Positions 37,540 to 58,252 of a stretch of DNA of 64,000 bases are shown piece after piece. A program made the position numbers and the translations under genes. Below the pieces are notes generated by a model. The model was given only the letters and a program-made list of their open reading frames with translations, did no database searches and was not told the origin of the DNA. The stretch is from the NCBI RefSeq assembly GCF_000255135.1, contig NC_016751.1, forward strand, positions 1,240,001 through 1,304,000, read 5' to 3'. Position 1 is the first letter of the stretch, and every line of letters begins with the position of its first letter. Source of the DNA: Marinitoga piezophila KA3 (GTDB lineage Bacteria; Thermotogota; Thermotogae; Petrotogales; Petrotogaceae).

Positions 37540-37569
37540 AACATATCCCCTTTCATGGTATTTTTTAAA

Positions 37570-37596
37570 ACAACCGGGCTTTTAATGCCCGGTTGT
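37570..37596 (-). terminator. GC-rich hairpin after the DUF2922 gene
   Basis: ACAACCGGGC and GCCCGGTTGT form a perfect 10-base stem with a 7-base loop, directly after the DUF2922 stop on the minus strand and followed by only three to four T. It may be a partial terminator giving reduced expression of the coiled-coil gene. Confidence 0.65.
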
Positions 37597-37599
37597 ATG

Positions 37600-37812: not shown

Positions 37813-37827
37813 GCCACATCACCTCCA

Positions 37828-38043: not shown

Positions 38044-38084
38044 ACTTTCATCTCCTTTCATTTTTTTGTTTTTATTTTTTCTCT

Positions 38085-38096
38085 GTCAGCGCTGAC
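38085..38096. promoter_or_regulatory. 12-base GC-rich palindrome upstream of the DUF1659 gene
   Basis: GTCAGCGCTGAC is a perfect palindrome, rare in such AT-rich DNA. It lies between the divergent DUF1659 gene and locus B and could be an operator. No regulator is known for it. Confidence 0.4.
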
Positions 38097-38253
38097 GATT
38101 GTAGTATATCCCATTGTTTTTGCAGGGGAATATTCAGCAATTTATTGGCAAATTTCGTTACTAACGCGTAACATTATCCGGCGTAAAAAAAGAAATTTTT
38201 CATTTAATTTCAAAATATTGATTGCTAATTTTAATTTTGGGAGAATGGTTTTA

Positions 38254-38262
38254 TGCTATAAT
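38254..38262 (+). promoter_or_regulatory. Extended -10 promoter of polysaccharide locus B
   Basis: TGcTATAAT, about 63 bases before the first gene, without a convincing -35. A leader follows, ending with AAAGGAGG before ATG 38325. Confidence 0.55.
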
Positions 38263-38324
38263 TATAATGCAATGTTTATACTTGATAATAATTGGTTAAT
38301 AGCGCTTAATATAAAGGAGGCTTT

Positions 38325-39746: not shown

Positions 39747-40844
39747 TTGAAATTATTATCTATATCCAGAAATTATTTTCCAGAAATTGGCGGAATTCAA
39801 ATTGTCGCAAAAGAAATAAACAAATGTTTTGATTCTATCGCTTTAACATATAACTATACTAATGAAAAAATATATAAAGTAGACAACATTGAGGGAACGA
39901 TCGTGCATAGAGTTCCCATTTTTTTTGAGAAAGGTTCTGTAAGAATTTCTCTAAATTATAGAAAGGCTCTTGATAAATTATCAAAAGATGTTGATATGAT
40001 TCTATATCATTTTGCCTCAGGACAGCCTGAATTAGATATTTTTATAAATGGTAAAATCCAAAATAAACCAAATATATGTTTTTATCATATGGATATTGCA
40101 GGAAGAGGAACTTTTGGAAATCTATATAATCATATAATAGTCAAAACTTTTCTTAAAAATATGGATAAAATAATAGTAACTTCTCCAAATATAATTAAGA
40201 CTTCTCCAGTTTTAAGGGATTTTAAAGACAAGATAGAAGTTGTTCCTTTATTTGTTGATACAAATCATTTTTATCCTAGAAAAGATAATGTTAGAAATAA
40301 ATTTATTAATAATGATGAAAAATTGATTTTGTATGTTGGAAGGTTTGGTAGATATAAAGGGCTTGAATATTTAATTGAATCTTTAAGATTTTTACCTGAA
40401 AATTATAAATTACTTTTAGTTGGTAAAGGTAAGAAAGAAAAAGAATTAAAGGATTTAGTAAAAAAGTATAATTTTAATAATAGAGTTATTTTTCTAAATC
40501 ATGTTAAGTATCAGGATTTACCGTTTTATTATTCTGCGGCTGATGTTTTTGTTTTACCTTCTATTGATAGAGGTGAAGCTTTTGGATTAGTCGCACTTGA
40601 AGCAATGGCATGTGGAATACCTGTAATAACTACAGAATTAGGTACAGGAACTACATATCATAATATAAACGGAGAAACAGGTATTCATGTTCCTCCAAAA
40701 AACTCAAAAGAAATTGCAAACGCTGTAAATACAATTGTTTCACAGGACTGGAAAAATAAAAAAAATGATATAATAATTAATAGAGCTAAAGATTTTGATA
40801 TTAAAGTGTTTCAAAGAAAAATTAAAAAAATATTAGAGGTGTAA
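39747..40844 (+). CDS. Glycosyltransferase family 4
   Basis: A 365-residue GT-B transferase. Start TTG at 39747 with AAAGGAG upstream. KLLSISRNYFPEIGGIQIVAKEI, LILYVGRFGRYKGLEYLIESLRFLP, LLVGKGKKEKELKDL and PSIDRGEAFGLVALEAMACGIPVITTELGTGT (the EX7E catalytic region) make a confident GT4 call. It directly follows the initiating transferase, so it may add the second sugar (inference). Confidence 0.92.
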   Translation: MKLLSISRNYFPEIGGIQIVAKEINKCFDSIALTYNYTNEKIYKVDNIEGTIVHRVPIFFEKGSVRISLNYRKALDKLSKDVDMILYHFASGQPELDIFINGKIQNKPNICFYHMDIAGRGTFGNLYNHIIVKTFLKNMDKIIVTSPNIIKTSPVLRDFKDKIEVVPLFVDTNHFYPRKDNVRNKFINNDEKLILYVGRFGRYKGLEYLIESLRFLPENYKLLLVGKGKKEKELKDLVKKYNFNNRVIFLNHVKYQDLPFYYSAADVFVLPSIDRGEAFGLVALEAMACGIPVITTELGTGTTYHNINGETGIHVPPKNSKEIANAVNTIVSQDWKNKKNDIIINRAKDFDIKVFQRKIKKILEV

Positions 40845-40846
40845 TA

Positions 40847-41980
40847 ATGAAAAAAATTCTGATCTTAGATCATGCTTATTGGTATGGTGGAGCAGAAAAA
40901 GTTCTTGTTGAATTTCTAAAAGGATACAATAGAAATAAATATGATATAACTGTTGGTGTGACATGTGAAAGTGAATTTACAGAAAAATTAAACGAAACAA
41001 ACGTTAAATATGAAGTTTTTCCACTAAGTAGAGATGTACTTGAAATGAGCAGATCAAAATTATCTGCTAAATTACTTCCAAAATATATTGAATACAAAAA
41101 AATGATAAAATCTATAGAAAAATTCATAAAAAAAGAAAAAATAGATTTAATTTTTACGAATTCTATGAAAGCTCATATTTATGGAGGGCAACTTTCAAGA
41201 AAACTAGGTATTAAAGCTGTTGCAAGAGTACATGATCATATAAATGATGAGTTCATAAAACCTTTAAAACTACTTTTAAAAAATACTTTTAATAATGATT
41301 TTTATCATATTTCATGTGTTTCAAATGCTGTGAAAAATTCCCTTATTGAAATTGGAATAAATAAAAATAAATTATCTGTTTTATATAACGGAATTACACT
41401 TAATCCATCTCTTAAAAGCATGGATTTTTACAAAAATTTATATAAAATATCTGAAGATGATTTTATTATTGGAACTGTTGGATGGATCCATCCAAATAAG
41501 AATCAATTACTGATTTTACAAGGGTTACATGAAATTTTAAAAGATAATATAAAATTAATGATTGTAGGGGGATATACCCCACCAAATAAAAATTATTATA
41601 TGAGTATTAAAAATTATATTAATTCAAATAACCTGGAAAACAATGTTATTTTAACGGGACATACTAAAGATATTTCCGGTCATTATTCTATTATGGATAC
41701 TTTAATTCATTTTCCTGAAACCGATTCTCTTCCAACAGTATTAATTGAAGGTATTATATCCGGAAAAACTGTGGTTGCAAGAAACATTAGCGGAATTCCT
41801 GAAATTTTAAATAATAAAAATGGATATCTTGTTGATTCAATTGAAGAAGCAAAAGATATTATTTTTAATATATATAAATATCCTGAAAAATATAAATTAA
41901 ACGTAGATATGGAAGATTTTGAAAAAAAATTCTCTTATGATAATTATATAAAAGGAATAGAGGAGCTTTTGGAAAAATGA
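40847..41980 (+). CDS. Glycosyltransferase family 4
   Basis: A 377-residue GT-B transferase. ILDHAYWYGGAEKVLVEFLKGY is the N-terminal loop; SVLYNGITLN, GTVGWIHPNKNQLLILQGLHEIL, LMIVGGYTPPNKN and PTVLIEGIISGKTVVARNISGIPEIL mark the donor domain. It overlaps the polymerase/ligase gene by 4 bases. Specificity is unknown. Confidence 0.91.
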   Translation: MKKILILDHAYWYGGAEKVLVEFLKGYNRNKYDITVGVTCESEFTEKLNETNVKYEVFPLSRDVLEMSRSKLSAKLLPKYIEYKKMIKSIEKFIKKEKIDLIFTNSMKAHIYGGQLSRKLGIKAVARVHDHINDEFIKPLKLLLKNTFNNDFYHISCVSNAVKNSLIEIGINKNKLSVLYNGITLNPSLKSMDFYKNLYKISEDDFIIGTVGWIHPNKNQLLILQGLHEILKDNIKLMIVGGYTPPNKNYYMSIKNYINSNNLENNVILTGHTKDISGHYSIMDTLIHFPETDSLPTVLIEGIISGKTVVARNISGIPEILNNKNGYLVDSIEEAKDIIFNIYKYPEKYKLNVDMEDFEKKFSYDNYIKGIEELLEK

Positions 41981-43242
41981 TATTTAATCTAAAAGATATT
42001 GTACTTTTAAGTTTTCATTTTGGATTTCTTTTTTCATTTTTTAATATTGTTCCTGCATATCCTATTTTTATTGTACTAGGAATAGTTTTTTTAATATTAT
42101 ATGTATACATCCCAGAAAAGTTAGTTTTTTCAAGAACAAATAAACTATTTTATATTATAGGATTTTTTTACTTTTCTAGCGCTTTGATTTCAGGTGTTAA
42201 ACTTTCAGAATTTTTTTCTTATAATAATTTTAGACATGATGGAAATTTTTATATTACTTATATGCCGCTTTTTTTACCTTTTTTACATGGTTATTTTAGA
42301 TCAAAAATAAATTATAAACAATTACTAATAAAAATATACGTTTTTATTAGTTTTATTACTTTATTATTGACTCTATCTTTTTTATTAAATCATCCTATAG
42401 GGATTTCCGCAGATGGAATATATCATTATCTATTTAAAGCACATAATGCAGCTGGTGGATATTATTTAATGATTTCTTTATTTGGTTTGTTTTTGTTTTT
42501 TGAAAAAAAATCGTTTTTTTATGGTTTTCTTTTTGTTTCTAATGCTGTAGCTTTATATTTTACCAAATCTCGTGGTTCATTATTGGCCTTTTTGTGGGTA
42601 ATGGGACTATTAATAATTGACTTTTTATTTAAAAATAAAAAGCTTAAAAAAGCTTATTATATTTTAACAATAATTGGTTCTATTTTGATTATAGGTGGAG
42701 CTTATTATTTGTCAAAAGAACATGGAGTTTATAATTTACAACCTACTAATGCTGAAGTTTTTGATTTAAATAATCCTAACCGAACTGCTAATATTTCAGA
42801 CAGACTTTTTGTACTCTGGCCAAGAGCTATAGATGATTTTTTAAGAAGTCCTTTATTTGGTATTGGATTTACACGTTATAATGATTTGCCTTATCGTTTT
42901 ATCGGTATTGAACATATTTTTATGATTAATACATCAAAAGTCTTTTTCTCTGATGCACATGCACATAATTCTTTTTTACATATACTAGCTGAAACAGGAA
43001 TAATAGGTTTTATTTTTTTAATCTTATTATTAAAAGAGCTGTTTTTTATTGCAAAAAAAATACCTGATAAATTCTTTTCTCAATATGTTTATTATTCAAT
43101 ATTTGCTATAATGATAGCCGGACTTACTGAACATAGAATATATACTCCTGCTCAGGTTATGCCTTTTACCATTATTTTAGAGATAATCATTTATATATAT
43201 TATAATCAAATTTATGCGGAGGATGAAATAGATGAGAACTGA
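41977..43242 (+). CDS. O-antigen ligase/polymerase-like membrane protein (Wzy_C type, locus B)
   Basis: 421 residues with about 11 hydrophobic segments. TKSRGSLLAFLWVMGLL is the Wzy/WaaL loop pattern; the large periplasmic loop holds ISDRLFVLWPRAIDDFLRSPLFGIGFTRYND and FSDAHAHNSFLHILAETGIIGFIF, with the His that marks the Wzy_C/WaaL superfamily. In this position, together with Wzx and Wzz, polymerase is the better choice than ligase. Confidence 0.86.
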   Translation: MIFNLKDIVLLSFHFGFLFSFFNIVPAYPIFIVLGIVFLILYVYIPEKLVFSRTNKLFYIIGFFYFSSALISGVKLSEFFSYNNFRHDGNFYITYMPLFLPFLHGYFRSKINYKQLLIKIYVFISFITLLLTLSFLLNHPIGISADGIYHYLFKAHNAAGGYYLMISLFGLFLFFEKKSFFYGFLFVSNAVALYFTKSRGSLLAFLWVMGLLIIDFLFKNKKLKKAYYILTIIGSILIIGGAYYLSKEHGVYNLQPTNAEVFDLNNPNRTANISDRLFVLWPRAIDDFLRSPLFGIGFTRYNDLPYRFIGIEHIFMINTSKVFFSDAHAHNSFLHILAETGIIGFIFLILLLKELFFIAKKIPDKFFSQYVYYSIFAIMIAGLTEHRIYTPAQVMPFTIILEIIIYIYYNQIYAEDEIDEN

Positions 43243-45019
43243 AATTACTTTACGAGATATTATTAATACATTAAAAAGACGATTTTATATTTTAATTATA
43301 GTTTTTATTTTAGTTTTTTGGGGAGTTATGTATATTTATAATATTCTCCCAAAATCATATGAATCATATATGGAAATTGAATTAAATTTAAATCAAAATA
43401 ATTCTTCAAGTCAGATTGAATCTCTTTTTAATTTAGGAGGTTCTAATACTGAATTAAAAGCTGAAATTGAAAAAATGAAAACAGATGAAATTTTAAGAAA
43501 TATTGTTAGAGATTTTAATTTAGTTGAATCAAAAAACAAATCGCGTCATATTATAGATAGGTTAAGAGGCAAGATATACTATGAAAGAGATTTAATAGAA
43601 ATTCTTAAAGATCAATTGAAAATAGAGCCTGTTGAAGGAACAAATATTTTGAAAATCTCTATCCAAAAATCTTCTCCTGACTATGCAAAAAGGTTTATTG
43701 ATTCATGGTTTAAATATTATAAATTATATAGAGAAAATTATCAAAAAAAGGTTAATGCTGAAAAACTTGAATATTTAAATCCTATTCTGAAAAAAGTTGA
43801 AAATGATTTAGATGAAATTTCCAAAAAGGTTTTAGATTTTGAATTAAAAAATAAAATTACAGAAAATAATCCTTTAATGGATAAGTATTATGAAATAGTG
43901 AAAGAATTATATCAGTATGAAGAAGAAAAAAATACTTTAGATATTAAAGTTAAAAACTTTGAAAATGTGTATTTGAATATCGATCCTCAAATGAAAGAAA
44001 TTTATCTTACAGAAAAAAATCAGCAAATTAAAAACATAAAATTAGAATTAGAAAATACACAATACGAATATGAAACTGTTAAAATTTTATCTCCAAATTC
44101 GCCAAAAGCTATTGAATTAAAAACAAAGATAGATGTGTTAAAAGCACAATTAGAAAAGAAATTAAATGTGATTATTAATAATAAAGATATTTATCTTAGT
44201 TCTATATCGCCCGATTTATTAAGTCAGTATAAGGAATTAAAGTATTCATATGAGGTATTGGATACAAGATATCAGATGCTTAAAAACCTTGAAAAAGACT
44301 TGAGCAAAAAAATTATAGATCAATCTCCTGTTATGTATGAATATTTAAAATTAAAAAAAGAACAAAAGATTTTAGAGGAAAAATATGAAATTATAAAAAA
44401 TACTATTGAACAAATTACTATTAACAACCTTTTAAATACAGAAAAAATTAAAATCATAAATGCATCATTTACTCCAACAAGAGCCATTTTTCCATCTTTT
44501 AAAATGTTTTTTGTTGGTGGATTTTTATTTGCATTTTTTATTGGGTCCATTGTTGCTTTAAGATTTGAATTGAAGGATAATAAAATTCATTCACTAAAGG
44601 ATTTTGAATATAATTTTAAAAGTCCTGAAGTTGTAATAAATAGCCAAAAAGATATACATGATATTTCTAAGTATATTTATGGATTAAATAAAAATAATAT
44701 TTTAATTTTAAATACGATAACTAAAAAAGATATACTTGAAAAAATTGAAAATATGTTGAATGAAGAACTTAAAATTTTAGACTATAATTTTATTTCTATT
44801 TCTAATCTTGATATTTCAAAAATTAAAGAATTAGAAAAAAAGATAAATTCCGAAAATAATATTGTTTTCTTAAAAGAATTTGATAAGAATGATCTTGCTA
44901 TTTTAAGTAACAAAATTGATTTTGTTATTACTATTGTTTCAGAGAAATATTCTGTTATTAAAAATACTGATATTGCAGAAAACTCTATTATCTTTTTTAA
45001 GAAAGGTATATTAAAATGA
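43232..45019 (+). CDS. Wzz-type chain-length protein with a degenerate kinase-like domain (locus B)
   Basis: 595 residues. TM1 about 20-38, long coiled coils, TM2 with PTRAIFPSFKMFFVGGFLFAFFIGSIVAL near residue 420, and about 150 C-terminal cytoplasmic residues. As at 18065, the tail keeps the order of the BY-kinase fold (NNILILNTITKKDILEKIENML in place of the P-loop segment near 487, IDFVITIVSEKYSVIKNT near the end), but has no Walker A, Walker B or Tyr tail. It overlaps the polymerase gene by 11 bases and is likely to pair with it for chain-length control. No intact kinase accompanies it. Confidence 0.87.
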   Translation: MRTEITLRDIINTLKRRFYILIIVFILVFWGVMYIYNILPKSYESYMEIELNLNQNNSSSQIESLFNLGGSNTELKAEIEKMKTDEILRNIVRDFNLVESKNKSRHIIDRLRGKIYYERDLIEILKDQLKIEPVEGTNILKISIQKSSPDYAKRFIDSWFKYYKLYRENYQKKVNAEKLEYLNPILKKVENDLDEISKKVLDFELKNKITENNPLMDKYYEIVKELYQYEEEKNTLDIKVKNFENVYLNIDPQMKEIYLTEKNQQIKNIKLELENTQYEYETVKILSPNSPKAIELKTKIDVLKAQLEKKLNVIINNKDIYLSSISPDLLSQYKELKYSYEVLDTRYQMLKNLEKDLSKKIIDQSPVMYEYLKLKKEQKILEEKYEIIKNTIEQITINNLLNTEKIKIINASFTPTRAIFPSFKMFFVGGFLFAFFIGSIVALRFELKDNKIHSLKDFEYNFKSPEVVINSQKDIHDISKYIYGLNKNNILILNTITKKDILEKIENMLNEELKILDYNFISISNLDISKIKELEKKINSENNIVFLKEFDKNDLAILSNKIDFVITIVSEKYSVIKNTDIAENSIIFFKKGILK

Positions 45020-46125
45020 AAGGACTTTATATTACTAAAGAGGATATTTTAAATCCTGAAATGAATGGTGTATTTAGAAAAATCTATGGTCAAATTTCTG
45101 CATTTAAAAAATCAGAAATTAATATTGATTTTGTTTATTTTAAAGGTAGTAAAATGGTTATAAACAATGATTCAAAAAAATCTTATTCTTCTAAATTCAA
45201 AAGGAATTTATCTATGTTCTCTGATATATTAAAGTTTACAGATATAACAAATTATGATTTTTTATATATACGATATCCTTTTTCTACTAAAGATTTCATC
45301 TCTTTTTTAAAAAAAATAAAAAGCTATAATTTAAAGGTTTTTGTTGAAATCCCAACTTTTCCATATGATGATGAAATCCATAATTTTAAACAAAAATTAA
45401 AATTATATAATGATAAAATTTATAGAAATTTCCTCAAGAAATTTGTTGATTATATTGTTACTTATTCAGAACACGATGAAATTTTGGGAATAAAAACTAT
45501 AAAAATTGTTAATGGAATAGATGTTGATAAAATTCCCGTTAGAAGCCCGCTACCTAAAAATAAAAATAGAATTGATTTAATCGGTGTGGCAAATGTTAGC
45601 AAATGGCATGGCTACGATAGATTAATTAAAGGATTAGAAGAATATTATAAAAACAAATATGAAAAAGAGGTTTATTTTCATATCGTTGGTGAAGGGCCTG
45701 AATTGGAAAATCTAAAATTATTAACTCAAAATTTAAAATTAGATAAATTTGTTATTTTCCACGGTTTTAAAACCGGAAAAGATTTAGATGAATTATTTAA
45801 TTTAGCTGATGTTGGAATTGGGAGTCTAGGAATGTATAGAATAGGATTAAAAAAAGGGGCTATTTTAAAATTAAGAGAATATTGTTCAAGAGGTTTGCCT
45901 TTTATTTATGGATATGATGATTCAGATTTTGATAGTTTTAAATATGCATTTAAAGTTCCAAATAATAGTTCTATTATACATATCAATGAGATTATTGATT
46001 TTTACGAAAAATTTAAAGATAGAGATTACATAAATGAGATACGAAAATATGCAGAAAAGAATTTGAGCTGGGCAGTGAAGTTAAAACCTATCATAGAAAA
46101 ATTATCTATAGGTGATTTTTTATGA
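45016..46125 (+). CDS. Glycosyltransferase family 4
   Basis: A 369-residue GT-B transferase: GLYITKEDILNPEMNGVFRKIYGQI at the start, IVNGIDVDKIPVR, IDLIGVANVSKWHGYDRLIKGLEEYY and FHIVGEGPELENLKLLTQNL in the donor domain, then LGMYRIGLKKGAILKLREYCSRGLPFIY as the E-containing loop. It overlaps its neighbours by 4 bases on both sides, so it is tightly embedded in the operon. Confidence 0.9.
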   Translation: MKGLYITKEDILNPEMNGVFRKIYGQISAFKKSEINIDFVYFKGSKMVINNDSKKSYSSKFKRNLSMFSDILKFTDITNYDFLYIRYPFSTKDFISFLKKIKSYNLKVFVEIPTFPYDDEIHNFKQKLKLYNDKIYRNFLKKFVDYIVTYSEHDEILGIKTIKIVNGIDVDKIPVRSPLPKNKNRIDLIGVANVSKWHGYDRLIKGLEEYYKNKYEKEVYFHIVGEGPELENLKLLTQNLKLDKFVIFHGFKTGKDLDELFNLADVGIGSLGMYRIGLKKGAILKLREYCSRGLPFIYGYDDSDFDSFKYAFKVPNNSSIIHINEIIDFYEKFKDRDYINEIRKYAEKNLSWAVKLKPIIEKLSIGDFL

Positions 46126-47378
46126 ATTTAAATATTCAGGATATTAAAATTTATGTAGAAAGATTTTTAAACAGCATTTTCAAAGGAGAAATAAAAATAA
46201 ATGTTGTAAACGATTATTATGTATTAAATAATATATTAGATTTTAGAATTTATAAATTCTGGGAAAAATCCGATGAAGAACTATTAAATGACTTTGAAGA
46301 TTGTTCCTTTAAGAATGATTATATTGGAACAATATTTTTCTTTTTATCTGGATATTGGGAATATATTCATAATGATAAAAAGGATCAATATGGAAGATTT
46401 ATTTATAATGAAAGCTTTCAATATAAAAAGAATATTATCGAAGTACCTATTGTTGATATTCTTGTTGATAATATAAAAGAAGAATTAAACCTGGAATATA
46501 AAGCAAATAAATCTTTACTTTTTTTGACACATGATGTAGATCATTTATCTTTTTTAAAACAAAAGATTTTTTATAGAAAGTTATTTGGAGATATTATAAA
46601 ACGAAGAAATTTCAAAGATGCTCTGGATAAAATTTTAAGAAAAATTAAAAATAATGATCCTTACGATTTAAAATATCTATTATTTACACATAAAAAATTA
46701 AATATTAAAGGTACCTTTTTTTTTCTTCCTAAAAAGCAAGAAAAAAATATTGATGGTGGCTATAATTTATTGAAAAATCAGGAATACTTAAAAAGAATAT
46801 TTAATGAAATAATTAAGAGTAATGGAAATATCGGTATACACTATGATGCTAAATATCTAATGAATAAAGACATGAAAAAAGATATATCTGATATAAAAAG
46901 TATTTTTAATGTAAATATTTTTTCTGGAAGAGCACATTATTTGATTTTTGATATAACAAAAACTTTTGATATTTTAGAAAAATCTGGAATTATATTAGAT
47001 ACAACAGGTGGTTATGCAGAAAATATTGGTTTTAGATTTGGGACATCGAAACCTTTTAAACCTTATAATTTTAATGAAAAACGAGAATATAATTTAATCG
47101 AAGTTCCTTTAATTGTTATGGAAGGAACTTTGCAAAATAAAAATTATATGAATTTAACTCCCGATGATGGATTTAATAAAATAAAAAAGATGATTGATAA
47201 AATTGAAAAATACAACGGAATTTTTACTTTTTTATGGCATAATTCGTCTTTTTATACCATTGATTGGAAAGACTGGGAATGGATATATGTAGAAAGCGTT
47301 AAATACGCACTAAATAAAGGCTTTTTAAGCGTTAACGCTCAGGATATTTTAAATATATGGAGTGAAAATGATGAGTAA
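46122..47378 (+). CDS. Polysaccharide deacetylase-like protein (NodB homology)
   Basis: A 418-residue protein with an N-terminal region of unknown fold (about 130 residues) and a NodB-type barrel: LLFLTHDVDHLSF (near 135, the His/Asp metal-binding motif), KGTFFFLPKK, NGNIGIHYDAKYL (second His motif) and a C-terminal FTFLWHNSSFYTIDW with another His. Such enzymes remove N- or O-acetyl groups from sugars. There is no signal peptide, so it may act in the cytoplasm or be a non-exported variant. It overlaps the FemAB-like gene by 11 bases. Confidence 0.83.
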   Translation: MNLNIQDIKIYVERFLNSIFKGEIKINVVNDYYVLNNILDFRIYKFWEKSDEELLNDFEDCSFKNDYIGTIFFFLSGYWEYIHNDKKDQYGRFIYNESFQYKKNIIEVPIVDILVDNIKEELNLEYKANKSLLFLTHDVDHLSFLKQKIFYRKLFGDIIKRRNFKDALDKILRKIKNNDPYDLKYLLFTHKKLNIKGTFFFLPKKQEKNIDGGYNLLKNQEYLKRIFNEIIKSNGNIGIHYDAKYLMNKDMKKDISDIKSIFNVNIFSGRAHYLIFDITKTFDILEKSGIILDTTGGYAENIGFRFGTSKPFKPYNFNEKREYNLIEVPLIVMEGTLQNKNYMNLTPDDGFNKIKKMIDKIEKYNGIFTFLWHNSSFYTIDWKDWEWIYVESVKYALNKGFLSVNAQDILNIWSENDE

Positions 47379-48309
47379 TAAAGATTTATATAAAAACTTT
47401 TGTGAAAAAGAACCTATTCCTGTATTTAGCCAATATTGGTGGTTAGATGCTGTTTGTGGAGAAAATAATTGGGATGTTATTCTGGTAGAAAAAGGTGGAG
47501 AAATATGGGCAAGTATGCCTTTTTTTAAAAAGAAAAAATTGTTTTTTTCGCTTCTTTCTATGCCACCTTTAACACAAAAATTAGGTCCTTATATAAGATA
47601 CCCAAAAAACCAGGGATATTATAAAAAACTTTCATGGGAAAAAGAGATTATGAATGAATTAATTTCAAAATTACCAAAATTTGATAAGTTTTATCAAAAG
47701 TGGGATTATAAATATCAAAATTGGTTACCTTTTTATTGGAAAGGATTTAAACAAACAACACTATATACTTATGTAATAAAAAAAGGAAAGTCTATAGATG
47801 ATATTTATAATAATTTTCATTCTTCAGTAAAACGTAGATTGAAAAAAGCTGAAAAGTTAAATTTGAAAGTTATAGAAAGTGATGATTATAAGTCATTTTA
47901 TGATATAAATAAAAGAACTTTTGAGCGAAAAAATCAAAGAATTCAGCATTCATTAGATTTAGTTGAAAAAATCTTTTTTGCGGCTAAAAAACATAATTCT
48001 TTAAAACTTTACTTTGCTGTTGATCAATATGATGAAATATATGCTGCTGGCTTTTTTGTATATGATAAAGATAGTGTTTATTATTTATTAGGAGGTATAA
48101 ATCCCGAAAAAAAGGATTCTGGAGCAATGAATTTGGTAATATATGAAGGAATAAAATTTGCTATTGAAAATAATTTGAATTTTGATTTTGAGGGAAGTAT
48201 GGTAGAACCTATAGAAAAATATTTTAGAAGTTTTGGGGCTGTTCAAAAGAGGTATTTTTTAATATTTGCTACCAATAATAAATTGCTTAAAATTTTTACA
48301 AAATTATAA
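47368..48309 (+). CDS. FemAB/GNAT-like (BioF2-type) transferase
   Basis: A roughly 313-residue protein with an N-terminal YWWLDAVCGENNWDVILVEKGGEIWASMPFFKKKK segment and a later NNFHSSVKRRLKKAEKLNLKVIESDDYKSFYDINKRTFERKNQ, then DKDSVYYLLGGINPEKKDSGAMNLVIYEGIKFA. This is the pattern of the FemAB-like acetyltransferase superfamily, members of which move acyl or aminoacyl groups. The substrate is unknown. I choose ATG 47368 (or the adjacent ATG 47371) because GGAG lies 5-8 bases upstream; the in-frame GTG at 47362 overlaps it. Confidence 0.78.
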   Translation: MMSNKDLYKNFCEKEPIPVFSQYWWLDAVCGENNWDVILVEKGGEIWASMPFFKKKKLFFSLLSMPPLTQKLGPYIRYPKNQGYYKKLSWEKEIMNELISKLPKFDKFYQKWDYKYQNWLPFYWKGFKQTTLYTYVIKKGKSIDDIYNNFHSSVKRRLKKAEKLNLKVIESDDYKSFYDINKRTFERKNQRIQHSLDLVEKIFFAAKKHNSLKLYFAVDQYDEIYAAGFFVYDKDSVYYLLGGINPEKKDSGAMNLVIYEGIKFAIENNLNFDFEGSMVEPIEKYFRSFGAVQKRYFLIFATNNKLLKIFTKL

Positions 48310-48324
48310 AACAGGAGGATTTTA

Positions 48325-49554
48325 ATGAATCGCAGAAAACTTTTTTTATTTACCAATAAATTTCCATATGATAAAGATGAGGAATTTTTAGAAACAGAAA
48401 TCCCTATTCTGGCCAATTATTTTGATATAATTATTGTTCCAAGATATCCACTTGGAAATATTCGTCCTATTCCTGAAAATGTTGAAATTGATAATTTTTT
48501 TATAGACTATTTGAGTAATCGAAAAATTTCCATATTAGGATTGACCAGATTTCATAAGTTTATAAAGGAATTCATCAATTCTAAAAAAATTATTTCATAT
48601 AAAAGCTTAGAATATTTTGGAATGGAATTTTTATTAAAAAAATGGTATAAAAAATACTCTATCGATTCAACTGTTATTTTTTACTCATATTGGCTGGCTT
48701 CTCAAGCATATGGTTTAACTCAATTAAATAAAAATTCAAATTATAAACATATTGTAATTTCCAGAACTCATCGATGGGACTTATATGAAGACGCAAATAT
48801 ATACCATTATTTGCCATTAAGAAAGGAAATTTTAAAAGATATTGATAAAGTTTTTTGTATTTCTGATGATGGAAAAAATTATTTAACAAAAAAATATCCA
48901 GAATATTCAGATAAATTTGAAGTTTCACGTTTAGGAGTATTACCTCAAACTAATTTAAATAAAGGCAGTAAAGACGATATGTTCAGAATAGTTACCTGTT
49001 CTGATCTGGTCCCTTTTAAAAGAGTTCATCTTGTTGTTGAAGCATTAAGCATTCTTGGTAAAAAAGTTAATAAGAGGATTTTATGGTCTCATATTGGTAA
49101 AGGTCCCTTAAAAGAAGAAATAGAAGAACTTGCAAATAAATTATTATCTAAAACCAATATCGAATATAAATTTTTAGGTTATCTAAAAAATAAAGATGTA
49201 TTAAACTTTTATGCTAATAATCCTATAGATTTATTTATCAATGTTAGCGAATCTGAAGGATTACCTGTATCAATTATGGAAGCTTTGAGTTTTGGTATTC
49301 CGGTTATGGCAACAAATGTTGGAGGAACAAGAGAATTGGTCGATGAAAATATTGGAAAATTACTTCCTTCTGATTTAACTGCTAATATATTAGCTGACCA
49401 TATCGAACAATTTATAAACCTTTCAGAAAAAGATAAACTTTTCAAACGAAAAAATGCATTAAAAAGATGGAACGAAAAAGTCAATGCTCTTAAAAATTAT
49501 GAGGATTTTTCAAAAAGAATTTTAAAATTACTTAATAATAAAAAATATCATTAA
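48325..49554 (+). CDS. Glycosyltransferase family 4
   Basis: A 409-residue GT-B transferase. RKLFLFTNKFPYDKDEEFLETEIPIL is typical of one GT4 branch; the donor side has MFRIVTCSDLVPFKRVHLVVEALSIL, WSHIGKGPLKEEIEELA, and VSESEGLPVSIMEALSFGIPVMATNVGGTREL (complete EX7E motif). An AGGAGG site precedes ATG 48325. Confidence 0.91.
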   Translation: MNRRKLFLFTNKFPYDKDEEFLETEIPILANYFDIIIVPRYPLGNIRPIPENVEIDNFFIDYLSNRKISILGLTRFHKFIKEFINSKKIISYKSLEYFGMEFLLKKWYKKYSIDSTVIFYSYWLASQAYGLTQLNKNSNYKHIVISRTHRWDLYEDANIYHYLPLRKEILKDIDKVFCISDDGKNYLTKKYPEYSDKFEVSRLGVLPQTNLNKGSKDDMFRIVTCSDLVPFKRVHLVVEALSILGKKVNKRILWSHIGKGPLKEEIEELANKLLSKTNIEYKFLGYLKNKDVLNFYANNPIDLFINVSESEGLPVSIMEALSFGIPVMATNVGGTRELVDENIGKLLPSDLTANILADHIEQFINLSEKDKLFKRKNALKRWNEKVNALKNYEDFSKRILKLLNNKKYH

Positions 49555-49575
49555 ATTGAAAAGAGGTTTTTTAAA

Positions 49576-51321
49576 ATGCCTGGTTTTTTTGGTTTAATAT
49601 CAAATAATAGAATTATAGATAAAATTAATATAACGCAAAGAAGAAATGATTTTCTCAAAGAAATATATAAAAATGAAAATTTATATATTGAGAGACAAAC
49701 TATAAATAAGTTTTTAAGAGATAAACCTTTTTATAAAGGTGAAGATTATGTTTTTTTGATTGAAGGAGTAATTTTAAATAAGGTTGAGTTAATTAATAAA
49801 TATAACTTAGAGAATTTTGAAAAAACTATTATAGAAATGTATAAAAGGTTAGGAGAAACTTTTTTTAATGATTTTCGCGGTAGTTTCTCCGGATTTTTTT
49901 ATGATAAAAAGAATAATAGATATCTAATTTTTACAAATCATTTTGGAGATAAACAGATATTTTATTATACACATGAAAATGAATTTATTATAGGTTCTGA
50001 GATTAATTATATTGTTGATTATTTAAGACAAAAAAACTATTCCTATAATCCCGACATTGAGTCTGCATATATGCTTTTAACTTATGGCTTTATGATAGAG
50101 GATCATACTCTTATTAATGAAATAAAAAAATTAATTGCCGGACATTATATTAAAATTGAGAATGGAAATTTTGAAATAAAACAGTATTATAAATTGGATA
50201 ATACTCCTGATAAAACTTTATCAGAAAATGAGATAATAGAAAATATAGACTCTTTATTCAAAACTGCAATAAGATATGAATTTGAAAAGGATAAAGAATA
50301 TAATTATAATCACATTGCAAGTTTAAGCGGTGGTCTGGATTCACGAATGACAGTCTGGATTGGAACAAAAATGGGATATAATATGCTTAATTATACTTTC
50401 TCGGAATCTGATTATCTAGATGAAACTATTTCAAAGGAAATAGCAAGAGATTTAAAAAATGAGTTTTTGTTTAAATCTCTCGATAACGGATTATATCTTA
50501 TAAAAGATAATATAATAAGAAAACAAATCGAAATTAATTCTGGAAATGTGTTGTATGCTGGAAATGCTCATGCTAAATCATTTGCTGATATTTTTAATTT
50601 TTCTAATTTTGGTGTTGTTCATACCGGGCAATTAGGTGATGTAATAATTGGAAGTTATATGAAAAAAGCTGTTTATAATAAAGAATTTAATATAGTAACC
50701 GGTGCCTATTCTGAAAAATTAAGCGAAAAGATTAAAAATATAAAATTGAAATTTGATTATCCAAATGAAGAAATTTTTAAATTATATAATAGAGGTTTTA
50801 ATGGTATCCTTCTGGGAAATCTTCCTTTTCAAGAATATACTGAAGTAATTTCTCCATTTTTATATAAAGAATTCATTGATTATTGTTTAAAAATCCCTCT
50901 TGATTTAAGAGTTAATCATAAAATTTATTTTAAATGGATACTAAAAAAGCATCCACAAGCTGCAAAATATAAGTGGGAAGCTATTGGAGCAAAAATAAAT
51001 ATACCTCAAATAAAGGTTTTAGGTAGACAAATCGCTATTACACAAATTCCTCATAAAATTATAAGGAAAATCTTAAATAAAAAAACTATAATGACAAGAC
51101 ATCATATGAATCCTTTGGAATACTGGTATAAAAATAATCATATGTTAAAAAGTTTTTTTGAAAAAACATTTAATGAAAAAATTAAAAACTTCGATATTTC
51201 AAAAGAATTAAAAACAGATGTTCAAAATATGTTTGAAAGTGGAAAAGTTATTGAGAAAACTCAGGTATTAACTTTATTAGAAGCTTATGATTATTTTTGG
51301 GGAGAATATCAAAATGAATAA
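49576..51321 (+). CDS. Asparagine synthetase-like protein lacking the glutaminase cysteine
   Basis: 581 residues with the architecture of AsnB: an N-terminal Ntn-type glutaminase fold (residues 1 to about 200: RGSFSGFFYDKKNNRYLIFTNHFGDKQIFYY, GSEINYIVDYL) and an ATP-pyrophosphatase domain with the PP-loop SLSGGLDSRMTVW near 250. Residue 2, the catalytic Cys of AsnB (MCGI), is Pro here (MPGFFG), so hydrolysis of glutamine by this domain is not expected. An amidation or amino-acid ligation reaction using another nitrogen donor, perhaps on a sugar carboxylate, is inferred. A second, shorter relative is at 58299. Confidence 0.87.
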   Translation: MPGFFGLISNNRIIDKINITQRRNDFLKEIYKNENLYIERQTINKFLRDKPFYKGEDYVFLIEGVILNKVELINKYNLENFEKTIIEMYKRLGETFFNDFRGSFSGFFYDKKNNRYLIFTNHFGDKQIFYYTHENEFIIGSEINYIVDYLRQKNYSYNPDIESAYMLLTYGFMIEDHTLINEIKKLIAGHYIKIENGNFEIKQYYKLDNTPDKTLSENEIIENIDSLFKTAIRYEFEKDKEYNYNHIASLSGGLDSRMTVWIGTKMGYNMLNYTFSESDYLDETISKEIARDLKNEFLFKSLDNGLYLIKDNIIRKQIEINSGNVLYAGNAHAKSFADIFNFSNFGVVHTGQLGDVIIGSYMKKAVYNKEFNIVTGAYSEKLSEKIKNIKLKFDYPNEEIFKLYNRGFNGILLGNLPFQEYTEVISPFLYKEFIDYCLKIPLDLRVNHKIYFKWILKKHPQAAKYKWEAIGAKINIPQIKVLGRQIAITQIPHKIIRKILNKKTIMTRHHMNPLEYWYKNNHMLKSFFEKTFNEKIKNFDISKELKTDVQNMFESGKVIEKTQVLTLLEAYDYFWGEYQNE

Positions 51322-52573
51322 AGCATTTATAAATAAACTTTCTAAAAAAGGTTTTTTTCATATTTTTTTCTCAAATGTTTTTAATAAGATTATTCAGTTT
51401 CTCACTTCAATTGTAATAGTAAAGTTTTTAACCAAAGAAGAATATGGTATTTTTTCATATGCGATGAATATTTTAAGCTTGTTTTTAATTTTAAATGGTT
51501 TAGGGGTAACTTCAGGTTTTTTGCAATTTGGAAGTGAATCGTATAAAGATAAAAATTTGCAGAAATCATATTTTAAATATGCTTTAACTGTAGGAATACT
51601 TTTTAATTTTCTTATCTCTTTTGCTATTTTTATATATTCACAATTTTTTTCATTACCAATTAAAGGCAGTATTGTTGTTTTAAAATACATGTCTCTCATA
51701 CCAATAATAACTATAATATATGAATTGATACAAACATATTATAGGGTGAACTTAAGAAATAAAATATATTCTTATACATATTCTTTAAATACGTTTTTAT
51801 ATTTTATTCTTTCTATAATTGGAGCATATTATCTAAAGATTAATGGTATTATTCTTGGGAGATATTTTGCTTATATTATTGCAATATTATTTTCTATATG
51901 GTATTTAAAAGATGATATAAGAGATATTTTTTATATTAAATATCCACAAAAAAATTTAAGAGTTGATTTTTTTAAATACTCTTTTGTTTCTTCTTTAACG
52001 AATTCTATATCCTCTATATTATATTTAATAGATACTTTTCTTGTTGGATTAATTATTAAAAATGCTGAAATTACTGCCTCATATAAGGCGGCAACATTGA
52101 TTCCTTTTGCTTTAAATTTTATTCCACTTTCTGTAATGACATTTGCATATCCTTATATTGTTCAAAATAATAAAGATAAAGCATATTTAAAGAAATATTA
52201 TTTTAAATTAAAAAAATATCTGCTTTTACTTAATTCACTAATAAGTTTATTTTTGATATTATTTGCACCATTTATTATAAAAATAATGTTTAGAAGTGAT
52301 TATACAGATTCTGTTTTACCGTTTCAGATATTATCTTTTGGATATTTCATAGCTGGAAGTTTTAGAATTCCAAATGGTAATTTTATTGCTGCAATAAAAA
52401 AGCTTAAAGTTAATCTAATTGTTTCCATAATTTCCGGAAGTGCTAATATTATATTGGATATTATATTAATTTATTATTATGGTTCCACAGGTGCCGCTGT
52501 TGCTACAGTTGGAGTATTTGTTATTTCTTCACTTCTTTCTGAATTATATCTATGGAGGTATTTTAAAAAATGA
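51314..52573 (+). CDS. Wzx-type oligosaccharide flippase (locus B)
   Basis: A polytopic membrane protein of about 419 residues with 12 or more hydrophobic segments; NVFNKIIQFLTSIVIVKFLTKEEYGIFSYAMNIL is the Wzx/MATE N-terminus and ASYKAATLIPFALNFIPLSVMTFAYPYIVQNN a mid-protein signature. ATG 51314 has GGGGAG upstream and is preferred to 51287, which lies within the preceding gene. It overlaps that gene by 8 bases. Confidence 0.9.
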   Translation: MNKAFINKLSKKGFFHIFFSNVFNKIIQFLTSIVIVKFLTKEEYGIFSYAMNILSLFLILNGLGVTSGFLQFGSESYKDKNLQKSYFKYALTVGILFNFLISFAIFIYSQFFSLPIKGSIVVLKYMSLIPIITIIYELIQTYYRVNLRNKIYSYTYSLNTFLYFILSIIGAYYLKINGIILGRYFAYIIAILFSIWYLKDDIRDIFYIKYPQKNLRVDFFKYSFVSSLTNSISSILYLIDTFLVGLIIKNAEITASYKAATLIPFALNFIPLSVMTFAYPYIVQNNKDKAYLKKYYFKLKKYLLLLNSLISLFLILFAPFIIKIMFRSDYTDSVLPFQILSFGYFIAGSFRIPNGNFIAAIKKLKVNLIVSIISGSANIILDIILIYYYGSTGAAVATVGVFVISSLLSELYLWRYFKK

Positions 52574-53625
52574 AAATAATAAGCTTAATAGGAGCAAGAC
52601 CACAGTTTATAAAAGAAGCTGTTTTGCATAAGGAATTGAAAAAAAGGGGAATTGATGAAATACTTGTTCATTCTGGACAGCATTATGATAAGAATATGTC
52701 TGATATATTTTTTCAAACATTGAATATTAAAGATCCTGATTATTATTTAAATGTTGGTTCTGGTAATCATGGTGAGATGACTGGAAAAATAATGATAGAA
52801 TTTGAAAAGATTGTTTTGAAAGAAAAGCCTGATATAATTTTAGTATATGGAGATACAAACACAACTCTTGCTGGTGCATTAGTTGCAAGTAAATTAAAGA
52901 TACCTGTAGCTCATGTAGAGGCTGGAATAAGGCAGGAACCAAAGGATATGCCAGAAGAGATAAACAGGGTATTAACAGATAGAATTTCAAATTATCTATT
53001 CTGTCCAAGTGAATTGGCTGTTGAGAATTTAAAGAAGGAAAATATAACTTCAGGTGTTTATTTTGTAGGAGATATAATGTATGATTTATATAAGATAATG
53101 GAAAAGGATTTTAAATATGAAATATTTGAAGAGTTAAAATTGAAAGAGAATGATTATATTCTTATGACAATGCACAGAGATTTTAATGTTGATAAGAAAG
53201 AAAAATTGGAAAAGATATTAATGCAGATAGAGAAAATATCAAATGAAAAAACTATTGTTTTTCCAATACATCCAAGAACAAGAAAAAGAGTAAAAGAATT
53301 TAATTTTGAAAAGTATCTAAAGAATGTTATATTGCTTGAACCAATAGATTATTTAAATTTAATGGGATTGGTAAAAAAATCATGGAAAGTGATAACAGAT
53401 AGCGGCGGACTACAAAAAGAAGCATATTTTGCAAAGAAACAGGCTATTGTGGTAATGCCTGATACAGGATGGAGAGAGCTAATAAAATTAAAATGGAATA
53501 TTTTAGCCGATGAAAATAATCTTTACGAAAAGACTTTTGAAGTAATAAACACAGCATATCCTGAAAATGTTTATGGCGATGGATATTGCGGAGAGAAGAT
53601 TGTGGAAATTATAAATAATCTTTAA
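52570..53625 (+). CDS. UDP-N-acetylglucosamine 2-epimerase (non-hydrolysing, WecB/WbpI family)
   Basis: Expected to interconvert UDP-GlcNAc and UDP-ManNAc, or an analogous diacetamido-uronate substrate. The 351-residue protein has GARPQFIKEAVLHKELKKR, LVHSGQHYDKNMSDIFF, VYGDTNTTLAGALVASKLKIPVAHVEAGIR, PEEINRVLTDRIS and DSGGLQKEAYFAKKQAIV, all typical. No WecC-like dehydrogenase is nearby. The long MSDIFF.., GSGNHGEMTGKIM stretch resembles the WbpI branch, so the exact substrate is open. It overlaps the flippase gene by 4 bases. Confidence 0.9.
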   Translation: MKIISLIGARPQFIKEAVLHKELKKRGIDEILVHSGQHYDKNMSDIFFQTLNIKDPDYYLNVGSGNHGEMTGKIMIEFEKIVLKEKPDIILVYGDTNTTLAGALVASKLKIPVAHVEAGIRQEPKDMPEEINRVLTDRISNYLFCPSELAVENLKKENITSGVYFVGDIMYDLYKIMEKDFKYEIFEELKLKENDYILMTMHRDFNVDKKEKLEKILMQIEKISNEKTIVFPIHPRTRKRVKEFNFEKYLKNVILLEPIDYLNLMGLVKKSWKVITDSGGLQKEAYFAKKQAIVVMPDTGWRELIKLKWNILADENNLYEKTFEVINTAYPENVYGDGYCGEKIVEIINNL

Positions 53626-54807: not shown

Positions 54808-55506
54808 ATGGATGCGGTTATTTTAGCAGGAGGACTTGGAACAAGACTTAAACCTTTTACAGATATTATACCAAAACCTTTATTACCTCTTGGGGAAAAA
54901 TCATTAATGGAAATTCAAATTGAACATTTAAAAAAATGCGGATTTAATAATATATATATTGCTGTAAATTATAAATCTGACTATATAAAAGCTTTTTTTG
55001 GAGATGGATCAAAATATGGAGTTAATATATATTATAGTGAAGAAGAAAAACCACTAGGAACAGCAGGGCCTTTAAAATTATTAGAAAAAAAATTATTAGA
55101 TCCATTTTTGGTTATAAATGGTGATATATTAACAAATTTTGATTTAAGAAAAATTTATGAATTTTCCTTAAATTATCCAGAATCACCACTTACTCTTGGA
55201 ACAAAAATCATAACAACACCTTTTAGATTTGGAAAAATTTATTCTGAAGGAGATATTGTAAAGGATATTGAAGAAAAACCGGAATTAAAATTTGAAATTT
55301 TAGCAGGTATTTATATAATGAAACCAAAAATTTTTGAATATATTCCATACAATGAATATTTTGGAATTGATCTTTTAATAAAAAAATTGTTGTCTAAAAA
55401 TATTCAGGTTACCAAATATATAATCAATGATTATTGGATTGATATTGGTGTTGTAGAAGATTATTCTAAAGCAAAAGAATTGTATGAAAATATGAAAAAT
55501 AATTAA
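54808..55506 (+). CDS. Sugar-phosphate nucleotidyltransferase
   Basis: 232 residues with AVILAGGLGTRLKPFTDIIPKPLLPLGEKSLMEI (nucleotide-binding loop and Lys), FGDGSKYGVNIYYSEEEKPLGTAGPLKLL, and VINGDILTNFDLRKIYEF (metal-binding GD). It activates a sugar-1-phosphate with an NTP. Being next to legB and legC, it may act like the PtmE-type enzyme that makes GDP-GlcNAc in some legionaminate pathways (inference); mannose-1-phosphate guanylyltransferase is the alternative. Confidence 0.88.
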   Translation: MDAVILAGGLGTRLKPFTDIIPKPLLPLGEKSLMEIQIEHLKKCGFNNIYIAVNYKSDYIKAFFGDGSKYGVNIYYSEEEKPLGTAGPLKLLEKKLLDPFLVINGDILTNFDLRKIYEFSLNYPESPLTLGTKIITTPFRFGKIYSEGDIVKDIEEKPELKFEILAGIYIMKPKIFEYIPYNEYFGIDLLIKKLLSKNIQVTKYIINDYWIDIGVVEDYSKAKELYENMKNN

Positions 55507-55527
55507 TGTTATTTATGAGGTGAAAAA

Positions 55528-56499
55528 ATGAAAGTATTGGTAACAGGAGCAGAAGGGTTTATAGGATCGCATTTAACAGAAATGTTAGTTGAAAAAGGAT
55601 ATAATGTAAAGGCTTTTGTAAGATATAACTTTCAAAATGATTGGGGCTGGCTTGAAAAATCTAAATATTTAAAAGATATTGAAATATATACAGGAGACAT
55701 AAGGGATTATGATAGTGTATATGATTCAATGAAGGATGTTGATGTTGTATTTCATCTTGCGGCATTAATTGGAATTCCATATTCATATATTTCACCTCTT
55801 GCATATATTAAAACCAATACAGAAGGTACATATAATGTATTGGAAGCTGCAAGAAAACTGGATATTCAAAGAGTTATTCATACATCAACAAGTGAAATAT
55901 ATGGAACTGCGCAATATGTACCAATTGATGAAAAACATCCATATAATCCACAATCGCCTTATGCAGCTTCTAAAGCTGGAGCTGATCATTTAGCTTTAAG
56001 TTATTATAGATCATTTGAATTACCGATAACTATAATAAGACCATTTAATACGTATGGTCCAAGGCAATCAGCAAGAGCTATAATACCCACAATAATATCT
56101 CAAATATTAGCAGGTAAAAAACAAATAAAATTAGGAAATCTTACACCTACCAGAGATTTAAATTATGTAAAAGACACAGCCAATGGTTTTATAACCGTAG
56201 GATTGCACGAAAAGACAATTGGTGATGTATATAATCTCGGAACAGGAAAGGAAATATCTATAGGTGATTTAGCAAAAAAAATAATAGAATTAACTGGAAA
56301 AGATGTTGAAATAGTAACAGATAAACAAAGATTAAGACCAAAAAAATCAGAAGTTGAAAGATTATTATCCAATCCGGAAAAAGCTATGAAATTAACTGGT
56401 TGGAAACCACAATATTCATTAGATGAAGGATTAAAAGAAACCATAGAATGGATAAAAGAAAATCTTCAATATTTTAAAGTTGATATATATAATGTGTGA
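55528..56499 (+). CDS. NAD-dependent 4,6-dehydratase, LegB family
   Basis: An extended short-chain dehydrogenase (323 residues) that makes a 4-keto-6-deoxy sugar. LVTGAEGFIGSHLTEMLVEKGYNVKAFVRYNFQNDWGWLEKS carries the NAD loop and the FN..WGWLE string typical of LegB; TSTSEIYGTAQYVPIDEKHPYNPQSPYAASKAGADHL has the catalytic residues, and NTYGPRQSARAIIPTIISQIL is conserved. It precedes a LegC aminotransferase and a PglD acyltransferase, which use its product. Confidence 0.9.
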   Translation: MKVLVTGAEGFIGSHLTEMLVEKGYNVKAFVRYNFQNDWGWLEKSKYLKDIEIYTGDIRDYDSVYDSMKDVDVVFHLAALIGIPYSYISPLAYIKTNTEGTYNVLEAARKLDIQRVIHTSTSEIYGTAQYVPIDEKHPYNPQSPYAASKAGADHLALSYYRSFELPITIIRPFNTYGPRQSARAIIPTIISQILAGKKQIKLGNLTPTRDLNYVKDTANGFITVGLHEKTIGDVYNLGTGKEISIGDLAKKIIELTGKDVEIVTDKQRLRPKKSEVERLLSNPEKAMKLTGWKPQYSLDEGLKETIEWIKENLQYFKVDIYNV

Positions 56500-56508
56500 G
56501 GCGAAAAA

Positions 56509-57606
56509 ATGAAAAATGAAATATTATTAGATGCACCTAATTTGGGAGAATTGGAAAAGGAATATTTGATAAAATGTATAGATAGCACCTTTGTTTCAAC
56601 TGCAGGACCTTTTATTCCAGAATTTGAAGAAAAGTTTGCTAAATATGTTGGTACAAAAAGAGCTGTTTCTGTTCAATCAGGAACAGCCGCATTATATATG
56701 GCATTATATGAACTTGGTATTGGTCCAGGAGATGAAGTAATAGTACCTGTAATTACATTCATAGCCTCTGTAAATCCAATAATGTATTTAGGGGCAACAC
56801 CTGTTTTTGTCGACGTTGATCCAGAAACCTGGAATATAGATCCAAAAGAAGTTGAAAAAGCTATAACAAAAAATACAAAAGCTATAATACCTGTTCATTT
56901 ATATGGAAATCCTTGTGATATGGATGGGTTAATGTATATATCAAAAAAATATGGAATTCCTATAATTGAAGATGCAACAGAAAGTTTAGGTGCAACATAT
57001 AATGGAAAAATGACAGGAACCTTTGGAATATTAAATGCATTTAGTTTTAATGGAAATAAAATAATGACCACCGGTGGTGGAGGAATGATAACTACAAACG
57101 ATGAAGAAAAAGCAGAACATATAAAATTTTTAATAAATCAGGCAAGAGATGCGAGCAGAGGATATTACCATCCAGAGATAGGATTTAACTATAGAATGAC
57201 TAATTTAGAAGCTTCGTTAGGTTTAGCTCAATTAGAGAGATTGGAAGAATTCTTAAATAAAAAAAGAAGGTTCGCTAAAATTTATATGGAAAATCTTCAA
57301 GATGTAAAAGAAATAAAATTTCAAAAAGAATATGAAAATGCAGAAAGTTCATGGTGGTTAACTTCAATTAAAATAAATTCAGATAAATCTATATCTGAAA
57401 TTCAAAGCGAATTAAAAGAAAAAGGTATTCCAACAAGAAGAATATTTGTTCCTATTGTTGAATTTCCGCCATATCAAAAATTTAAGACTTCTAATTATAA
57501 AAATGCATATGAAATATATGAAAGAGGTTTAAATTTACCAAGTTCTACTGTTAATGGTTATGATTCGATAAAATTTGTAGCGGAGGAATTGAAAAATGTC
57601 ATCTAA
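56509..57606 (+). CDS. LegC-family PLP-dependent sugar aminotransferase
   Basis: DegT/DnrJ/EryC1-type aminotransferase (365 residues) that puts an amino group on C4 of the 4-keto sugar. LIKCIDSTFVSTAGPFIPEFE is the LegC signature; VSVQSGTAALYMALYELGIGPGDEVIVPVITFIAS, PIIEDATESLGATYNGKMTG and the PLP-lysine motif SFNGNKIMTTGGGGM follow. It overlaps the PglD gene by 11 bases and comes right after the dehydratase. Confidence 0.92.
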   Translation: MKNEILLDAPNLGELEKEYLIKCIDSTFVSTAGPFIPEFEEKFAKYVGTKRAVSVQSGTAALYMALYELGIGPGDEVIVPVITFIASVNPIMYLGATPVFVDVDPETWNIDPKEVEKAITKNTKAIIPVHLYGNPCDMDGLMYISKKYGIPIIEDATESLGATYNGKMTGTFGILNAFSFNGNKIMTTGGGGMITTNDEEKAEHIKFLINQARDASRGYYHPEIGFNYRMTNLEASLGLAQLERLEEFLNKKRRFAKIYMENLQDVKEIKFQKEYENAESSWWLTSIKINSDKSISEIQSELKEKGIPTRRIFVPIVEFPPYQKFKTSNYKNAYEIYERGLNLPSSTVNGYDSIKFVAEELKNVI

Positions 57607-58252
57607 AGAAAAAATTATTCTTGTTGGCGGTGGAGGTCATTGTAAAGTAGTTGCTTCTATAATATTTGAAAAAAATGAATATGAAATAATAGGAATTTCA
57701 GATTTAAAAACTGAAATTGGAAAAGAAATAATGGGAATAAAAATTAATTATATTGATGAACAATTAGAAGAACTGTATAAAACTGGAATTAAAAATGCAT
57801 TTGTTACTGTTGGTAGTGTTGGAAATCCTGATTTGCGAATAAAATTATTCAAAAAATTGAAAGATATAGGTTTTAATCTTCCTGTTATTATTTCAAAACA
57901 TACAATAATTAGTAAAGATGTAAGTATAGGAGAGGGAACTGTAATTATGCCTGGAGTTATTGTAAATCCTGGAGTTAAAATTGAAAGAAATTGTATTATT
58001 AATACAGGAGCAATAATTGAACACGACTGTATAATAGAAGATAATGTTCATATTGCACCTGGTGTTACGTTAAGTGGTGGAGTTAAAATAGGAGAAAATA
58101 GCCATATAGGAACTGGAACTTCTATTATTCAAAATATTGAAATCGGTAAAAATGTTCTTATTGGTGCTGGTTCTGTGGTTGTTAATAATATCCCTGATAA
58201 TACTAAGGCTTTTGGTGTTCCGGCTAAAATTAAAAGTGTTATTGATAATTAA
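57596..58252 (+). CDS. Sugar O/N-acyltransferase, PglD/NeuD family
   Basis: 218 residues: an N-terminal Rossmann-like domain (IILVGGGGHCKVVASIIFEKN) and a left-handed beta-helix of hexapeptide repeats (about 100-210) with INTGAIIEHDCIIEDNVHIAPG, which includes the family's catalytic histidine (EHDC). It N-acetylates the 4-amino sugar made by the two preceding enzymes. The three together give a 2,4-diacetamido-trideoxy hexose such as diacetylbacillosamine (inference). ATG 57596 has GGAGG upstream. Confidence 0.92.
   Translation: MSSKEKIILVGGGGHCKVVASIIFEKNEYEIIGISDLKTEIGKEIMGIKINYIDEQLEELYKTGIKNAFVTVGSVGNPDLRIKLFKKLKDIGFNLPVIISKHTIISKDVSIGEGTVIMPGVIVNPGVKIERNCIINTGAIIEHDCIIEDNVHIAPGVTLSGGVKIGENSHIGTGTSIIQNIEIGKNVLIGAGSVVVNNIPDNTKAFGVPAKIKSVIDN

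Follow-up and report, generated by a model that had tools for sequence, protein, structure and literature searches.

The 64,000-nucleotide stretch of the Marinitoga piezophila KA3 genome analysed here (the window) contains a Wzx/Wzy-type polysaccharide locus at 38325–62768, and the genes of this locus described below are all on the forward strand. The gene at 49576..51321 is flanked by genes for a glycosyltransferase and for a Wzx flippase, and encodes a protein of 581 residues, which the open-reading frame, Pfam, alignment and a predicted model identify as a glutaminase-dead asparagine-synthetase-B-like protein. An initiating sugar-phosphate transferase, glycosyltransferases, and Wzy-type and Wzz-type genes occupy 38325..45019. 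Three genes upstream of the AsnB-like gene is a VimE-like deacetylase (DUF7033, 46122..47378), which scores 139 bits against NCBIfam VimE, under the cut-off of 440, and two genes upstream is a FemAB/VimA-like GNAT protein (Acetyltransf_6, 47362..48309), a possible aminoacyl transferase that is called VimA-type by analogy with PMC7468200. A group-1-type glycosyltransferase (48325..49554) is located immediately upstream. On the other side, the Wzx-type flippase (Polysacc_synt, 51287..52573), a conserved neighbour, overlaps the 3′ end of the gene. Two genes downstream is a WbpI-type UDP-2,3-diacetamido-2,3-dideoxy-glucuronate 2-epimerase (52570..53625), a marker of acetamido-uronic acid, whose product scores 353 bits to WbpI-type chains versus 143 bits to E. 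coli WecB (1f6d). The nucleotidyltransferase, LegB, LegC and NeuD genes at 54808..58252 make up a 4-amino-4,6-dideoxy sugar module.

A second AsnB-like gene (58299–59735) follows NeuD and precedes a CapA/PGA_cap gene. Its 478-residue product is missing the initial portion of the glutaminase domain and has no Cys2, and forms a clade with L014:12169–13833 and L107:688–2394 (support 100/99). The adjoining PGA_cap/CapA-type protein (59738–60688) matches the lasso peptide epimerase MslH weakly, with 22 bits. Two polysaccharide loci in the window are separated by 1.6 kb (36687–38324) in which no ORF reaches 120 aa. Near-identical copies of GDP-mannose 4,6-dehydratase, one of them partial, are found in two polysaccharide loci of this genome (window 23948–25108, L141:410–1570 and L141:7633–8088).

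The N-terminus of the 581-residue protein is MPGFFGLIS, starting with an ATG that is preceded by a Shine-Dalgarno-like stretch (gaaaagagg, 49558..49566, forward strand), placed similarly in the Thermotogota homologues. An earlier note on this DNA had read Pro at position 2 in place of the Cys nucleophile of AsnB, and had pointed out that a different start codon might bring a Cys to this position. This ATG is the only usable start, as there is an in-frame TAA at 49552 with no ATG, GTG or TTG in between. Moreover, C437 is the sole Cys of the protein, so that no start codon is able to place a Cys at position 2. An alternative start is thereby excluded and the reading of Pro2 is confirmed.

The protein belongs to the asparagine synthetase B superfamily, which combines an Ntn-type glutaminase fold with a PP-loop domain, as judged from the predicted model, Pfam and profile alignment. 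Pfam scores are 46.1 bits for GATase_7 (cut-off 25), 34.2 bits for GATase_6 and 22.0 bits for Asn_synthase (cut-off 21). A degenerate Ntn-type N-terminal domain comprises residues about 1–200, and the synthetase domain, with the PP-loop S251-G-G-L-D-S-R257 and D355, residues about 210–581. The AlphaFold model (pLDDT 91.9) is closest to TsnB9 (Z 28.9), human ASNS (Z 27.9) and E. coli AsnB (PDB code 1ct9, Z 27.8) among the solved structures compared, and beta-lactam synthetase (1m1z, Z 27.1) and carbapenam synthetase (1q15, Z 24.6) follow. The superposition on 1ct9 covers 444 residues and places Pro2 of the model on Cys1 of AsnB. The scores for more narrowly defined families are low: 83 bits against a cut-off of 267.1 for TIGR01536, the glutamine-hydrolysing asparagine synthases (68–110 bits in four relatives); 69.1 bits against 816.9 for TIGR03108 (WbpS/eps_aminotran_1); and 59.1 bits against 525 for the lasso peptide cyclases (NF033535).

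Intact homologues with 49–53% sequence identity are found in six other Thermotogota genomes besides that of M. piezophila; altogether the family occurs in nine of the 103 Thermotogota genomes searched, two of which carry broken copies. All eight intact Thermotogota homologues begin with MPGF and have a ribosome-binding site close 5′. In G102 the gene (L059:8847–10579) is split into two overlapping frames of 204 and 385 aa, remote from any Wzx, and is a decaying copy. In G015 (L014:12169–15643) an AsnB-like gene of the second type is followed by what remains of an MPGF-family gene, 100 aa of its C-terminus, and then by the same Wzx, an arrangement that is the trace of a gene replacement at this site. 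When an alignment was used as the query, a profile scan of the genomes of 84,980 species returned 20 loci, in part the Thermotogota already known; scans of genome contigs and viral contigs with a single sequence gave no homologue. Matches outside the Thermotogota show 34–44% identity, with one outlier (L050) at 24%. The hosts belong to at least five phyla and include Thermotogota, Bacillota, Bacteroidota, Planctomycetota, Actinomycetota, one deltaproteobacterium and others. There are at most three copies per genome, the three being found in G069, and one locus contains a tandem pair of members that both start with MPGF (L045:8248–11737), together with homologues of WbpA, B, D, E and I.

In the maximum-likelihood tree, 24 members form a single clade (100/100), separate from the Cys2 AsnB relatives (100/100), and L050 is placed outside it. 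Two further Cys-less proteins, L011 and L013, nest within the Cys2 clade, which indicates that the nucleophile has been lost more than once. In the literature searched, mostly freely accessible papers, AsnB-like uronamide synthases are described and no account of the present Cys-less family was located; the Cys-less MPGF-type clade is apparently a family so far undescribed.

The earlier note had proposed an alignment around residue 2 with relatives from other polysaccharide loci. Among 25 aligned sequences (alignment A2) this position holds Pro in 15, Ser in five, Ala in three, Arg in one and a gap in one, and Cys, the catalytic residue 1 of mature glutamine-hydrolysing synthases, in none. Judged by the aligned sequences, the missing nucleophile is a family-wide trait of the 24-member clade. 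Correspondence to the residues of AsnB was taken from a full-length profile-profile alignment (probability 100, E 1.4e-53). The oxyanion Asn of NGEIYN is replaced by Glu or Asp in 22 of the 25 sequences (Glu 13, Asp 9; Asn, Thr and Gln once each), and the family conserves no equivalent of the Asp in the SDxE motif. The motif NGEIYN is present in every Cys2 homologue examined, but reads DGKIYN in L011 and DGEILN in L013, which became Cys-less independently, so the two losses travel together. The earlier claim that the rest of the glutaminase fold is kept is therefore only partly borne out: the fold is retained in the model, but the pocket is not. The PP-loop is kept, as had been stated: SGGLDSR is present, S251, G253, L254, D255 and R257 are invariant in all 25 sequences, D355 is retained in 24, and residues of the ATP site belong to the best-conserved positions in the family. 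Judged from alignment and model, the glutaminase half is inactive and the synthetase half appears functional. Two candidates for a replacement residue were discarded. Pro2 gives way to Ser, Ala or Arg in other clade members, and L036–L038 have a shorter N-terminal part. Gln352, at the position of AsnB E348, is shared by the Cys2 homologues L004, L006–L008 and L029.

Of the 24 loci whose family gene is intact, 20 have a Wzx-type flippase gene immediately next to it, on one side or the other and in one case divergent. Pfam flippase families were confirmed in the ten adjacent Wzx proteins checked, weakly in one of them (L046). The subtypes differ, with a short type in Thermotogota and in Clostridium and its relatives, for which the best match in a control locus is at most 68 bits, and longer types in Bacteroidota. 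The distances between the enzymes and between their Wzx partners, compared over 19 pairs of which one is the outlier L050, correlate with r = 0.64, a value reached in none of 2000 permutations, although shared ancestry of the loci inflates both this statistic and the co-occurrence. At L046:6148–8550 a flippase is fused to a group-1-type glycosyltransferase in a single frame of 800 aa.

Across the family loci, the genes point most consistently to a uronic acid as the source of the carboxylate. In Thermotogota, a WbpI-type epimerase is present in all eight distinct family loci versus 10 of 53 control Wzx loci, from which L128 was left out since it has no Wzx (Fisher p 1.5e-5, made optimistic by kinship). 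Outside this phylum, Wbp or WecB/WecC-type genes are found in 10 of 15 intact loci, among them homologues of WbpA, B, D, E and I in L049 as in L045, of A, D and I in L046, of B, D and E in L035, and a WecB-type epimerase with a dehydrogenase in L034, L036 and L038. A clear uronic-acid gene is absent from the flanks examined of the intact loci L033, L041, L043, L044 and L047. In M. piezophila itself, WbpE-, WbpA- and WbpB-like genes, named by family type and grouping, are clustered at C2:1522671–1527223, while a search of the genome for WbpD gave only weak or LpxA-like matches. Together with the WbpI-type epimerase of the window, this cluster supports the uronic-acid acceptor that had been suggested from the polysaccharide context. 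A family-wide link to VimA and VimE was rejected, as both lie near a family gene only in the window and in L054, and the control locus L087 has both without a family gene.

The closest functional precedents are the uronamide synthases. In Porphyromonas gingivalis an AsnB-like WbpS encoded beside wzx makes a uronamide, and its deletion leaves the acid (PMC7468200); WbpS of H. pullorum is another precedent (PMC6025236). The suggestion of an undescribed glycan decoration was thus too strong, as uronamides made by the AsnB-like WbpS and WbqG are already known (PMC7468200, PMC6025236). The chemistry itself is not new, and what differs is an enzyme without its own glutaminase. The M. piezophila protein shares with WbpS, WbqG and PGN_1234 the AsnB-like nature of the enzyme, a glycan locus with Wbp genes, the wzx neighbour seen in P. 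gingivalis and, in the window, VimE-like and VimA-like genes, and the locus genes provide the association with acetamido-uronic-acid biosynthesis that is typical of TIGR03108. However, the protein is far under the TIGR03108 cut-off, the 24-member clade is separate, and the family lacks the Cys2 seen in the single XrtA-type member (start MCGISG) by which TIGR03108-type proteins were compared.

With AsnB the protein shares the two-domain fold over its full length and the SGGLDS loop, but Cys1, the oxyanion Asn and the SDxE Asp of AsnB are not conserved in the family, and it scores under the TIGR01536 cut-off. In beta-lactam and carbapenam synthetases the glutaminase domain is dead and the PP-loop synthetase is active, and the same combination of a lost nucleophile and a kept PP-loop is found in the family alignment. 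These enzymes have the AsnB fold in common with the M. piezophila protein, though with only 11–14% identity, and the present gene lies in a polysaccharide locus. The latter also separates it from the lasso peptide cyclases, which are of the same fold class and match it weakly. In the characterised members of these three Cys-less groups the amine comes from within the substrate, and they are not known to use ammonia.

The reading considered best, with a probability of about one half, is that of an ATP-dependent synthetase of the AsnB fold without a glutaminase, which would amidate a uronic acid of the repeat unit before export by Wzx. Having lost the glutamine-hydrolysing half-reaction, the enzyme would adenylate an acetamido-uronic acid, probably a 2,3-diacetamido-uronic acid of a Wbp-type pathway, at its C6 carboxylate, as part of a nucleotide- or lipid-linked repeat unit. 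Externally supplied ammonia or a small amine would then attack to give the uronamide, and the adjacent Wzx flippase would export the amidated unit. By analogy the enzyme probably performs the task of WbpS, with the difference that its ammonia source is not its own and ammonia or an amine is supplied from outside. Its substrate and nitrogen donor are inferred, as are the point in the pathway at which it acts and the link to flipping. This reading is supported by the loss of the nucleophile and pocket, the retained PP-loop and modelled fold, the Wzx adjacency and the uronic-acid genes in most loci. It is weakened by the five loci without a clear uronic-acid gene, by the WbpD not identified, by the 69 versus 817 bits for TIGR03108, and by the use of a substrate amine in Cys-less relatives.

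This last point is central to a tentative alternative, clearly less probable, in which the uronic-acid carboxylate is joined to an amine other than ammonia, such as an amino acid, a polyamine or an amino-sugar. The ammonia-generating site has been lost family-wide while the synthetase is kept, the model fits beta-lactam and carbapenam synthetases nearly as well as AsnB, and many family loci contain aminodeoxy-sugar genes. However, no conserved amine-donor gene is found beside the family gene, the VimA-like protein of the window is a likelier aminoacyl transferase, and the Gln at the AsnB E348 position is no pointer, being found in Cys2 homologues too. It is rather doubtful that a cross-phylum family couples a lipid-linked uronic-acid carboxylate to a non-ammonia amine as a step that is matched to the Wzx flippase beside it.

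It is unlikely that the enzyme instead activates an amino acid or another small acid and attaches it, within the repeat unit, to a 3- or 4-amino-dideoxy sugar through the sugar's free amino group. DegT aminotransferases occur in 15 of the loci examined and the LegB/LegC/NeuD module in the window, L051 and L058, but LegB and LegC are likewise present in control loci without the family, and hexapeptide acyltransferases are already encoded in the same loci. A catalytically inactive relic that partners Wzx structurally or acts as its specificity factor would account for the conserved adjacency and co-variation, and is made very improbable by the conservation of the ATP site. Least probable, at long odds, is an ordinary ammonia-dependent asparagine synthetase that substitutes for AsnB in its hosts: the Thermotogota carriers do lack any TIGR01536 protein above the cut-off, but the family is patchy, present in up to three copies per genome and found in polysaccharide loci, and with 83 versus 267 bits its sequence indicates that the product of 49576..51321 is probably not such an enzyme.

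Many bacterial surface glycans contain uronamides or amino-acid-substituted uronic acids, and to our knowledge few of the responsible enzymes have been characterised. A coherent family that has given up the glutaminase half-reaction, and whose hosts include thermophilic Thermotogota as well as Clostridium and marine Bacteroidota, raises the question of the nitrogen donor directly, and gives database curators grounds against naming such proteins asparagine synthases. Its pairing with Wzx raises the further question of whether amidation is a checkpoint ahead of flipping. If a non-ammonia amine is indeed used in a step matched to Wzx, the family would stand for a form of glycan amidation that is paired with a flippase and has gone unrecognised.
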